From positions 1 to 64,000 of the forward strand of contig JAISUT010000016.1 of NCBI GenBank assembly GCA_031271905.1: a stretch of 64,000 nucleotides of DNA, written 5' to 3'. Every line of letters starts with the position of its first letter. Within the stretch, counting starts at the first letter, position 1. Positions 6,432 through 54,575 of the stretch are shown one piece after another. The notes beneath the pieces are model-generated. The model searched no databases. It saw only the letters and a list, made by a program, of their open reading frames with translations, and was not told the DNA's origin. Source of the stretch: Acidobacteriota bacterium. Its GTDB lineage: Bacteria > Acidobacteriota > UBA6911. A program made the translations under genes and the position numbers.

Positions 6432-6552
6432 GGGAACCTCAAAAACCCCGACGCTGCGTTTGCGCCTTGGTCGAAAATGCCCATTCGCCTCAGAAAACTC
6501 CGCTTTTCGACCTGCGGCAGACGCCTTGTCTGCGAGGTTTTTAGAGGTTCCC
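6432..6552 (+). repeat. Palindromic MITE-like repeat, copy 1
   Basis: This is a full-length copy (121 bp) of the dispersed element, lying between mreC and mreD. It begins GGGAACCTCAAAAACC and ends GGTTTTTAGAGGTTCCC, so the termini are inverted repeats. The inner GGTCGAAAA/TTTTCGACC pair is intact. I define plus orientation as reading GCGTTTGCGCCTTGGTCG, as here; the flanking genes are on the minus strand. The 4-bp flanks (CATG and TATA) do not match. The rest of the mreC-mreD gap, to 6683, holds no gene that I recognise. Confidence 0.9.
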
Positions 6553-19888: not shown

Positions 19889-20010
19889 GGGAACCTCTAA
19901 AACCTCGCAGGCAAGGCGTCGCCGCAGGTCGAAAAGCGGAGTTCGCTGAAGCGAATGATCATTTTCGACCAAGGCGCCGGCGCCGTCATCCGGGGTTTCC
20001 GGAGGTTCCC
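19889..20010 (-). repeat. Palindromic MITE-like repeat, copy 2 (inverted)
   Basis: A full 122-bp copy, and the only one in the opposite orientation. It lies just upstream of the plus-strand MFS gene, so its orientation relative to that gene matches that of the other copies relative to their minus-strand genes. The flanks TGAA and TAAA match at three of four bases. It occupies much of the 415-bp divergent gap at 19626-20040, which also has a TTGACA at 19806-19811 without a clear -10 partner. Confidence 0.9.
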
Positions 20011-34696: not shown

Positions 34697-35971
34697 TTAC
34701 TCCACGCGAATATTAGCATTACGATAGATGAAATCAAGCGCCTTGTCCTGAAGCAGCCCCTGCTTCAAATCGTCCATGCGGTCCGCCTTCTCAAGCTCCG
34801 CCCGCCACTGCGCCGCAGGTTTCCGGGAGTTCGCCGCCAGTCTCTCCAGCTCCGCGTCCACGTCCTCTTCGGAGACTTCAAGGTTCTCCTGCCGCGCGAT
34901 GGCGTCCAGGAAGATCTGCCGCCGCACCGACTGCTGGGCTTGCGGCCGCTGCTCGTCGTAGATCTTCTTCCAGTCGAAACCGGCGGTCTGGTTGATGTCG
35001 AAACCTTGGTAGGCGAGGTTGTTGACCAGCCGGCGGGTGTACTCCCCCAACTCCTCGGTCACCAGGCAGTCCGGGACTTCGATCGGTTGACGCTCGATGA
35101 TGGAGTCCAGCAGCGTCTCCCGCGCCTCCTTTTCGGCAATCTGCCCCGCTTGCGTTACCAAATCCTCGCGCATCCTGGCCTTGAACGCCTCGGCGTCGTC
35201 GAACCCGATGTCCTTGGCGAACTCGTCGTTCAGCTCGGGGAGCTGCCGCTCCTTGACGTCCTTCACCGTGACGGTGTAGGCGACCTTTTTGCCCGCGAGC
35301 TTCTTGTTGTGGTAATCCTCGGGGTAGGCGATGTCGAACGTCTTGACGTCGCCGGTCTTGGCTCCGCGAAGATTCTCGGAGAACTCCTTGGCGGTCTGCG
35401 GATGCCCCACCACCAGGGTGACATCCTCGTCATGGGTGGGGGCTTCTTCGCCCTCCGCCTGCCCGTCTACGTCGACCAGCACGAAGAACCCGTCCTTCGC
35501 CTCGCCCTCCACCGGGACGAACTGGGAGTATTGCTCCCGCACGCGGTCGATGGACTGCGCCACGTTTTCGTCCGTCACCTCGGCCTTGCCCTGCTTGACC
35601 TCGACGCCTTTGTAGTCCTTCACCTCCAGCGGGGGGAGCTCCTCGAAGGTGAGCAGGAACTTCAGCGGCTCGCCCGGCTTGTTGTCGAACTCCTTGATCT
35701 CGGGGCGGGTCAGCGGCTTGAGGTTGTTCGCGTCGATGGCGTCCTGCCAGACCTTGTCCATCATCCGCTGCGAGGTCTCGTCTTGCAACTCCTTGGCGTA
35801 GCGCTGGCGGACGATGCTGGTGGGCGCCTTGCCGGGGCGGAAGCCGGGGATCTTCGCGTTGCGTGCGTATTCCTTGGCTACTTTTTCGAGTTCGTTCGTG
35901 AAATCCTCGGCGGAGATCTCCCCTTTGAGGTTCTTCCTGCAACTGTTCACTTGGGTGATTTCGGCTGTCAA
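34697..35971 (-). CDS. tig: Trigger factor chaperone
   Basis: Trigger factor binds the ribosome exit and shields new chains. The 424-residue product has the N-terminal ribosome-binding signature (KIPGFRPGKAPTSIVRQRYAKEL, about residues 40-62), a central FKBP-like isomerase region (about 150-235, DGFFVLVDVDGQAEG) and a helical C-terminal domain. It begins with TTG at 35971, supported by GGAG 7 nt upstream; no in-frame ATG is near. It heads the tig-clpP-clpX-lon series, and the tRNA-Leu gene lies upstream on the same strand. Confidence 0.95.
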   Translation of the reverse strand: MTAEITQVNSCRKNLKGEISAEDFTNELEKVAKEYARNAKIPGFRPGKAPTSIVRQRYAKELQDETSQRMMDKVWQDAIDANNLKPLTRPEIKEFDNKPGEPLKFLLTFEELPPLEVKDYKGVEVKQGKAEVTDENVAQSIDRVREQYSQFVPVEGEAKDGFFVLVDVDGQAEGEEAPTHDEDVTLVVGHPQTAKEFSENLRGAKTGDVKTFDIAYPEDYHNKKLAGKKVAYTVTVKDVKERQLPELNDEFAKDIGFDDAEAFKARMREDLVTQAGQIAEKEARETLLDSIIERQPIEVPDCLVTEELGEYTRRLVNNLAYQGFDINQTAGFDWKKIYDEQRPQAQQSVRRQIFLDAIARQENLEVSEEDVDAELERLAANSRKPAAQWRAELEKADRMDDLKQGLLQDKALDFIYRNANIRVE

Positions 35972-36015
35972 GATGGGCTCCTGCCTGTCTTTCTATAATG
36001 GTGCTGAATATTTAT

Positions 36016-36137
36016 GGGAACTTCTAAAAACCCCGGCATACTGCGTTGCGCCTTGGTCGAAAACGCTCATTCGCCTCGGCAACCCCCGCTTTTCGATCTG
36101 CGGCGACGCCTTGTCTGCGAGCTTTTCAGAGGTTCCG
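36016..36137 (+). repeat. Palindromic MITE-like repeat, copy 3
   Basis: A full 122-bp copy between tRNA-Leu and tig. It is flanked by a perfect 4-bp duplication, TTAT at 36012-36015 and 36138-36141. Its right end reads GAGGTTCCG, one mismatch from the consensus. It has the same orientation as copies next to other minus-strand genes. Confidence 0.92.
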
Positions 36138-36191
36138 TTATGGGCCCGGATCATCCGATCCGCGTTACGATCCCGGTTCCTTTTCCTTCCG

Positions 36192-36276
36192 TGGTGCGAA
36201 AGGGGGGACTTGAACCCCCACCCCTTGCGGGACTGGATCCTAAGTCCAGCGCGTCTGCCAATTCCGCCACTTTCGC
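36192..36276 (-). tRNA. tRNA-Leu (anticodon UAG)
   Basis: This 85-nt gene includes an encoded 3' CCA. The acceptor stem GCGAAAG/CTTTCGC is perfect. The anticodon stem CTGGA/TCCAG closes a seven-base loop, CTTAGGA, with anticodon TAG (plus-strand 36240-36242), which reads CUN leucine codons. A short variable arm (CCCGCAAGGGG region), typical of class II tRNAs, and a T-arm GGGGGTTCAAGTCCCCC are present. It lies between two copies of the palindromic repeat; the upstream copy ends only 22 bp from the mature 5' end, so the promoter must overlap or precede the repeat. Confidence 0.97.
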
Positions 36277-36298
36277 ATTCGGAGTCGCTGCTTTTCCA

Positions 36299-36420
36299 GG
36301 GAGCCTCTGAAAACCCCGGACGCCGCGTTGCGCCTTGGTCGAAAATGCTCATCCGCCTCGGCAAACTCCGCTTTCCAACCTGCGGCGACGCCTTGCCTGC
36401 GAGGTTTTCAGAGGCTTCCC
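36299..36420 (+). repeat. Palindromic MITE-like repeat, copy 4
   Basis: A full 122-bp copy directly upstream of tRNA-Leu, in the divergent gap before ruvA. Its right terminus reads GGTTTTCAGAGGCTTCCC. Flanks TCCA and TCTT do not match. Orientation is the same as copy 3, so the pair forms a 283-bp direct-repeat bracket around the tRNA. Confidence 0.92.
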
Positions 36421-36793
36421 TCTTATGATAGGGCGACCCTGCCGAAGCCGCCGTTTGAGAAATGCGACGCATCCCGAGGGCGCGTCCCACCCGTGCGTCC
36501 GGGGACGTCCCGGCGCCCGCCCCACGGACGTTCCTCCGACGGCGCGGAACCGGGTCGCGAAAAGCAAGGCGAACCTGCGACGCTACAGAAAACGACCCGC
36601 AAGTCTAACAAAGCCCGTGAAGCTCGTCAATGGACGCAATCGACGGATCGCGCCTAAAAAATGCGCCACATTTCTGAAACCGCATGCGGTTGCCGAAGTA
36701 ACGTCTTCGCGCCGAGCCGAGGTTTGTGGTTGCGCTCTCCCCCGCCCCGGGCAATAATCATCTTTTTCTTCTGTCGAGGCGGGGCGGCGAGAC
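36421..36793. other. Intergenic region upstream of ruvA
   Basis: This 373-bp stretch has no open frame that I believe. It ends with the ruvA promoter candidate described at 36730-36758. I find no LexA-like site. Confidence 0.5.
36730..36758 (+). promoter_or_regulatory. Candidate ruvA promoter
   Basis: TTGCGC (36730-36735), 17 bp, then AATAAT (36753-36758). Transcription would begin near 36765, about 29 nt before the ruvA ATG. I see no CTGT-N8-ACAG operator, so SOS control is not evident. Confidence 0.45.
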
Positions 36794-37399
36794 ATGATCG
36801 GACAATTGCGCGGGAAGCTCATCAACAAGAAACCCAACCTGCTCCTCGTGGACGTGCAGGGGGTCGGCTACGAAGCAACCATCCCCCTGACCACCTTCTA
36901 CGAGCTGCCGGAGGAGGGGGGCGAGGTCGTCCTGAAAATCCACACGCACGTGCGCGAGGACGCCATCGTCCTTTTCGGGTTCCACTCGCAACGGGAGAAG
37001 GATTTCTTCCTGAAGCTCGTCACCGTCAGCGGCGTCGGCCCCAAGCTCGCCGTCGCCATCCTGTCCGGCGCGCCGGTCGAGGAGCTGGCGCAGGCGCTGG
37101 CGGCTGGCGACACGCACCGTCTCACGTCGATCCCCGGCGTAGGGAAGAAGACCGCCGAGCGTCTGGCGCTGGAGCTCAAGGGGCAGATGTCGGCGTTCCT
37201 CCTGCCGGAGCAGGCGGAGGCGGCCAAGGCGTCCGGCGCGGCGCTGTCGGTCGAAGACGACATCCTCTCGGCGCTGGTCAACCTCGGCTACCCGCGCCCG
37301 TCGGCGGAAAAGGCGATCTCGCTGGCGCTGCGGGACGAGGGGGTGGAGCGCACGTTCGAGGGGATTTTGAAGACCGCCTTGCGGCGGCTCGCCGGGTAG
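36794..37399 (+). CDS. ruvA: Holliday junction protein RuvA
   Basis: RuvA binds four-way DNA junctions as a tetramer and loads the RuvB motor. The 201-residue protein shows the N-terminal barrel (MIGQLRGKL and VDVQGVGYE), two helix-hairpin-helix motifs (VSGVGPKLAVAIL and IPGVGKKTAERLALEL) and the C-terminal RuvB-contact domain (DILSALVNLGYPRPSAEKAI). It is 6 nt ahead of ruvB. ruvC is not next to it, unlike in many bacteria. Confidence 0.97.
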   Translation: MIGQLRGKLINKKPNLLLVDVQGVGYEATIPLTTFYELPEEGGEVVLKIHTHVREDAIVLFGFHSQREKDFFLKLVTVSGVGPKLAVAILSGAPVEELAQALAAGDTHRLTSIPGVGKKTAERLALELKGQMSAFLLPEQAEAAKASGAALSVEDDILSALVNLGYPRPSAEKAISLALRDEGVERTFEGILKTALRRLAG

Positions 37400-45219: not shown

Positions 45220-45290
45220 GGACTCGCCTCCTCCCCCGGTGCCGATTTCCCGGACTCCCCCTTGCGCCTTAGCATCTTCGAAACGCTTCA

Positions 45291-45411
45291 GGGAGCCTCT
45301 AAACCCCGGACGCTGCGTTGCGCCTTGGTCGAAAATGCTCATTCGCCTCGGAAAGCTCCGCTTTTCGCCCTGCGGCAGACGGCCTTGCCTGCGAGGCTTT
45401 CAGAGGCACGC
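45291..45411 (+). repeat. Palindromic MITE-like repeat, copy 5
   Basis: A full 121-bp copy between lplA and the E1 alpha gene. The 4-bp flanks are identical, TTCA at 45287-45290 and 45412-45415. The right end has decayed (GAGGCACGC instead of GAGGTTCCC). It lies in the 315-bp gap at 45220-45534, in which I see no other feature. Confidence 0.92.
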
Positions 45412-48084: not shown

Positions 48085-48205
48085 GGGAACCTCTAAAAAC
48101 CCCGGACGCTGCGTTGCGCCTTGGTCGAAAATGCCCATTCGCCTCAGCAAACCCCGCTTTTCGACCTGCGGCGACGCCTTGCCTGCGAGGTTTTTAGAGG
48201 TTCTC
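48085..48205 (+). repeat. Palindromic MITE-like repeat, copy 6
   Basis: A full 121-bp copy between the two exbD genes, very close to the consensus: GGGAACCTCTAAAAACCCC at the left and GGTTTTTAGAGGTTCTC at the right. The left flank is ACAA; ACAA occurs on the right after one extra base (48207-48210). It lies 11 bp upstream of the GTG that opens the downstream exbD frame and 40 bp upstream of its ATG. Confidence 0.93.
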
Positions 48206-49848: not shown

Positions 49849-49910
49849 GGGAACCTCTAAAACCCCGGATGCCGCGTTGCGCCTTGCCTGCGAGGTTTTA
49901 GATGCTCTCT
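49849..49910 (+). repeat. Internally deleted palindromic repeat, copy 7
   Basis: A 62-bp derivative. Its left arm runs to GCGTTGCGCCTTG and continues directly with CCTGCGAGGTTTTAGA. It thus lacks the central segment between the two GCCTTG motifs of the full element. The flanks are TTCA at 49845-49848 and 49911-49914. It lies in the exbB-tonB spacer. Confidence 0.85.
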
Positions 49911-50934: not shown

Positions 50935-50998
50935 GGGAGCCTCTAAAAACCCCGGACGCTGCGTTGCACCTTGTCTGCGAGGTTTGTTAGAGGCGCCC
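50935..50998 (+). repeat. Internally deleted palindromic repeat, copy 8
   Basis: A 64-bp copy with the same internal deletion as copy 7: GCGTTGCACCTTG joined to TCTGCGAGGTTTGTTAGAGGC. It lies between the secF stop and the tonB promoter. The rest of the 50669-51067 gap shows only the promoter. Confidence 0.85.
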
Positions 50999-52279: not shown

Positions 52280-52399
52280 GGGAACCTCTAAAAACCCCGG
52301 ACGCCGCGTTGCGCCGTGGTCGGAAATGCTCATTTACCCCGGTAAACTCCGCTTTTCGACCTGCGGCGACGCCTTGTCTGCGAGGTTTTTCGAGGCTCC

Positions 52400-52400
<1 letters not shown>
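52280..52400 (+). repeat. Palindromic MITE-like repeat, copy 9
   Basis: A full 121-bp copy between secD and secF with a perfect 4-bp duplication, TAGA at 52276-52279 and 52401-52404. The secD stop codon (minus-strand TAG, 52402-52400) uses the final base of the element plus two bases of the duplication. The element thus lies right against the gene end. Confidence 0.94.
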
Positions 52401-54456: not shown

Positions 54457-54575
54457 GGGAGCCCCTAAAACCCCGGACGCTGCGTCGCGCCTGATCGAAA
54501 ACGCCCATTCGCCTCGGCGAACTCCGCTTTTCGACCTGCGGCGACGCCTTGCCTGCCAGCTTTTCAGAGGTTCCC
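54457..54575 (+). repeat. Palindromic MITE-like repeat, copy 10
   Basis: A 119-bp copy between tgt and yajC. Flanks are TAAT and TAAA (three of four match). It ends 4 bp from the tgt stop codon. The centre has a small deletion at CGCGCCTGATCGAAAA compared with the consensus. Confidence 0.92.

Follow-up and report, generated by a model that had tools for sequence, protein, structure and literature searches.

The ERIC sequences of enterobacteria are imperfect palindromes of ~120-127 bp, found between genes in tens to hundreds of copies and within transcripts, on which an orientation-dependent effect has been reported and in which they are cut by RNases according to their orientation (PMC3049150, PMC10969869). 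The Correia/NEMIS elements of Neisseria are MITEs with terminal inverted repeats, often located just upstream of genes; once in a transcript, they are cut by RNase III (PMC10969869). The BOX, RUP and SPRITE sequences of pneumococcus are short non-coding repeats scattered over the genome, whose mild strand bias (~61-63%) mirrors the coding strand (PMC3049150), and REPs are units of 20-40 bp (PMC3733652). The repeat that brackets a tRNA-Leu(UAG) gene in the DNA described here is like ERIC in size, palindromic structure, intergenic setting and copy number, a likeness of form and setting. Like Correia/NEMIS, it is a MITE with terminal inverted repeats that often lies near gene starts. REP and REPIN sequences are likewise intergenic palindromes in high copy number, whereas the present element has a unit of 121 bp and 4-bp target duplications.

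The consensus of the repeat is 121 nt long (GGGAACCTCTAAAAACC...GGTTTTTAGAGGTTCCC), with 17-bp terminal inverted repeats that are perfect in the consensus. Almost palindromic, it is predicted to fold over its whole length, at -66.9 kcal/mol on one strand and -72.2 kcal/mol on the other (z of about -9.9 and -9.5, respectively). The element is non-coding, carries no transposase gene and gave no match to an Rfam family. Exact, A/T-rich target duplications of 4 bp were found at 39 of the 121 copies with both ends (32%), against 2.86 expected from shuffles, and no other length between 2 and 8 bp stood out in these copies. A short form of 63 nt lacks the middle, with its junction at two CGCCTTG repeats present within the long form; three of the eight short copies first examined also had an exact 4-bp duplication. 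With its terminal inverted repeats, its fixed 4-bp target duplication and insertions that are absent in relatives, the repeat is a MITE. A search for a transposase yielded one DDE_Tnp_1 fragment, with no matching terminal inverted repeats within ~1.5 kb, in a 67-contig assembly that may miss an IS; a scan for orphan terminal inverted repeats of an autonomous partner gave no convincing pair. The first 1.3 kb of contig C54 (L081) carry an AT-rich helicase-like open reading frame and a transposase fragment near the contig end. The composition of this stretch is unlike the rest, and it may be foreign DNA or a misassembly.

Long copies number at least 115 and short copies at least 67 in the 3.40-Mb genome (67 contigs), ~180 in all. 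The core pattern gave 115 matches genome-wide and the reversed control pattern 0, far above what chance would give, and 136 of the 138 copies read in context were intergenic. Ten copies lie in the window, the whole 64-kb stretch of DNA that was analysed. Besides the two at the tRNA gene (copies 3 and 4, see below), long copies occur on the plus strand at 6432-6552, 45290-45408 (TTCA on each side, by eye), 48085-48205, 52280-52400 (with a TAGA duplication) and 54458-54574, and on the minus strand at 19889-20010. Short copies occur on the plus strand at 49849-49907, where the deletion runs between the two CGCCTTG repeats, and at 50935-50997. At three or fewer mismatches, the element core was absent from 39 of 39 relatives. 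Among 396 genomes of the phylum, one other carrier was found, a member of the same genus (G002), with a subfamily 77% identical to the element and present in at least 40 copies. Judged from the 396 genomes searched, the MITE family appears restricted to one genus.

The tRNA-Leu(UAG) gene (anticodon TAG) lies at 36192-36276 on the minus strand (ARAGORN; Rfam tRNA, 60.5 bits). It is the sole tRNA with a UAG anticodon that ARAGORN found in the genome, and BLAST returned one full-length genomic match. Copy 3 (36016-36137, plus strand) sits in the spacer between the tRNA and tig and is flanked by TTAT at 36012-36015 and 36138-36141. Copy 4 (36299-36420, plus strand) sits between the tRNA gene and its promoter and has no clear or surviving target duplication at its ends. 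The 3' end of the tRNA is separated from copy 3 by 54 bp (36138-36191) and its 5' end from copy 4 by 22 bp (36277-36298), and the two copies are in direct orientation, 282 bp apart. The sequence-only reading had given exactly these coordinates, distances and orientation. The next gene downstream is tig, encoding trigger factor (34697-35971, minus strand; TIGR00115, 375 bits), and the divergent neighbour is ruvA (36794-37399, plus strand; TIGR00084). Of 13 relatives from the genus and family, 12 have the tRNA-Leu gene immediately upstream of tig; in the 13th the contig ends there, with a truncated gene present. None of these 13 relatives, the closest included, has a MITE copy at this locus, and neither does the congener carrying the subfamily. 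The leader of the closest relative is too diverged to give a base-exact empty site. Because relatives keep the order tRNA-Leu-tig without a copy, the unit predates the repeat insertions.

Across 35900-36800, the only promoter-like site was TTGACG-17-TAGACT, at 36630-36602 on the minus strand. This site, with TG ahead of its second hexamer, is the probable tRNA-Leu promoter (36602-36630) and aligns with TTGACA...TTTGCTA in five of the six congeners aligned, where it lies ~100-130 bp upstream of the tRNA. It had been argued from the letters that the promoter must be inside or beyond the upstream copy; it is placed beyond copy 4, at a site conserved in congeners, and none was found in the 22-bp gap. 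The predicted precursor leader, which we infer from the promoter position, spans 36277-36595 (minus strand) and contains copy 4; at ~320 nt, it compares with ~100 nt in congeners. With the promoter beyond copy 4, the hairpin should be in the tRNA precursor, and thus the long hairpin that had been proposed there is probably present, provided that the region is transcribed as the promoter predicts. The same leader holds an extra GC-rich stretch (36421-36545, minus strand), which is lineage-specific and missing from congeners. When 36421-36600 was considered as a further repeat, no second copy was found among the genome stretches compared. A motif, CTCGCCCTTGCTTTTGCC...CCGG (36560-36600, minus strand), between the promoter and the tRNA is common to several congeners (loci L052 and L054-L058) and partly retained here.

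Genome-wide, the copies show a strong orientation relative to the gene that turns its 5' end towards them: 95 run against that gene and 15 with it (~86%). Genes for these counts were called by codon usage, with a simple custom tool in place of a standard program. In co-directional gaps, 77 copies were antisense and 13 sense (p 3e-12), or 59:10 with strict gene calls (p 1.4e-9), and the short copies in such gaps, 17 in number, were all antisense. In divergent gaps, 18 of 20 copies were antisense to the nearer gene, and in convergent gaps orientation was unbiased (10:11). The bias peaks within 50 bp of the gene start, with 37 antisense copies against 2. It is absent from the subfamily of the congener (11:9; Fisher p 0.004 against the element here), which is not what a simple insertion rule would predict. 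As far as the literature was searched, ERIC has not been described as lying so predominantly antisense to the gene that faces it. The bias of the pneumococcal repeats is also weaker and is not tied in this way to the gene facing the copy, and those repeats are over-represented in convergent gaps, where the present bias disappears. A limited literature search, which is weak evidence of absence, gave no report of a comparable orientation bias.

Several sources of the bias were considered and rejected. A replication-strand artefact was ruled out, as contigs carrying genes in both directions kept the bias (40:7), and so did divergent gaps. An age effect was not seen, identity to the consensus being equal for both orientations (p 0.72). 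An element-borne open reading frame fused to the downstream gene would have a preferred frame, and no frame preference was found. Nor does an element-borne promoter account for it: no sigma-70-type site lies within copies 3 or 4, in contrast to Correia elements, which carry promoters, and -10-like sites flanking the copies showed no clear enrichment on the gene side. With regard to selection at the RNA level, G-U pairs outnumbered A-C mismatches in antisense copies of co-directional gaps (111:79, p 0.024), in a set of copies that share ancestry. The bias may arise from insertion preference or from selective loss of sense copies that harm leaders. Tentatively, and with more doubt than confidence, the element may read the direction of transcription, its transposition being coupled to transcription or to leader RNA so that it inserts antisense, mostly within ~100 bp of start codons, or else the antisense hairpin may be kept as a leader element. 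Copy 4, lying in the tRNA-Leu leader, would be an example of this, if it is true. The direct arrangement of copies 3 and 4 follows from the same bias, because nearly all copies are antisense to the gene that they precede.

Copies flanking other tRNA genes, which the sequence-only reading had suggested looking for, do occur. In a census of 39 tRNA loci (44 genes), with expectations taken from the intergenic copy density of the genome, 8 loci had a copy within 200 bp, with 9 copies against 4.9 expected (p 0.06). Within 100 bp the count was 7, where 2.8 were expected (p 0.025); this excess weakens at 200-300 bp (p 0.06, 0.17), and the copy counted near tRNA-Asn is a partial one. If 6 five-prime and 3 three-prime copies are spread over 39 loci, the probability that at least one tRNA is bracketed is 41%, and the bracketing of one tRNA by two copies is about as chance predicts. 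At tRNA-Trp, a copy (L029:1586-1710) lies 11 bp upstream of the tRNA and downstream of rpmG (PF00471), and is therefore probably within an operon. The tRNA-Leu(CAA) gene is separated from a TTGACT-17-TACTAT site by a short copy, and at tRNA-Val(UAC) and tRNA-Cys it is upstream of a promoter-like site that a copy is found (both readings by eye). It has been weighed on these counts whether the copies are functional hairpins, one on each side, that guide 5' or 3' processing or stabilise the tRNA-Leu precursor. The presence of copies in the probable precursors of Leu-UAG, Leu-CAA and Trp, all in the preferred orientation, argues for such a role, as does the slight excess within 100 bp. However, relatives, the closest among them, make the same tRNA without a copy and most retain the promoter, 31 of 39 tRNA loci have no copy within 200 bp, and the excess both fades with distance and includes the partial copy; a functional role is improbable.

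Still less probable is a role of the direct repeats as a recombination substrate, arising when the tRNA segment was duplicated or lost or serving such events, which had been put forward as a route to duplicate, delete or excise the gene. The layout invites it, with a single tRNA-Leu(UAG) gene between two direct copies a short distance apart, but copies 3 and 4 are only 83.5% identical, share no identical run longer than 21 bp and each match dozens of other copies better than each other, and copy 3 has its own target duplication. By these comparisons, they are independent insertions. The expected change in tRNA copy number among relatives was not found either: barring possible contig-edge fragments, nearly all of 15 genomes have one copy of the gene, and its position is kept in nearly all relatives. 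As tRNA-Leu(UAG) is the only CUA reader found, its loss should be lethal. A third alternative, equally remote, is that a RAYT or gene conversion spread the repeat, which would then be a REP/BIME-type palindrome instead of a transposon. Its intergenic, palindromic and abundant copies would suit that origin, as would the failure to find a partner enzyme; against it stand the fixed ends, the long terminal inverted repeats, a unit far longer than a REP and the exact 4-bp duplications at 32% of copies. To our knowledge, REPs lack target duplications, and the REP/BIME reading is largely refuted by the duplication statistics.

The account that we favour, with a probability of roughly 0.85, is that two copies of a genus-restricted MITE inserted independently into an old unit of promoter, tRNA-Leu(UAG) and tig. 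The element, with its 121 bp, 17-bp terminal inverted repeats and 4-bp A/T-rich target duplication, would have been mobilised in trans by a transposase encoded elsewhere, one insertion entering the tRNA leader and the other the spacer between the tRNA and tig. Both copies would then be transcribed and would form long hairpins within the precursor, from which the mature 5' end would still be made by RNase P, the hairpins perhaps being trimmed by RNase III.

What was found at the tRNA gene is genuine and ordinary: two insertions from a new MITE family. A striking tRNA layout thereby becomes a countable case of MITE insertion, in which the promoter has been placed and the tRNA unit is older than the repeats. 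The orientation bias is unusual and is the part of the finding most worth following. At 95:15 it is clean, has convergent gaps as an internal control and is missing in the sister subfamily; it therefore makes it possible to test directly whether short transposons in bacteria choose a direction of transcription or are sorted according to it.
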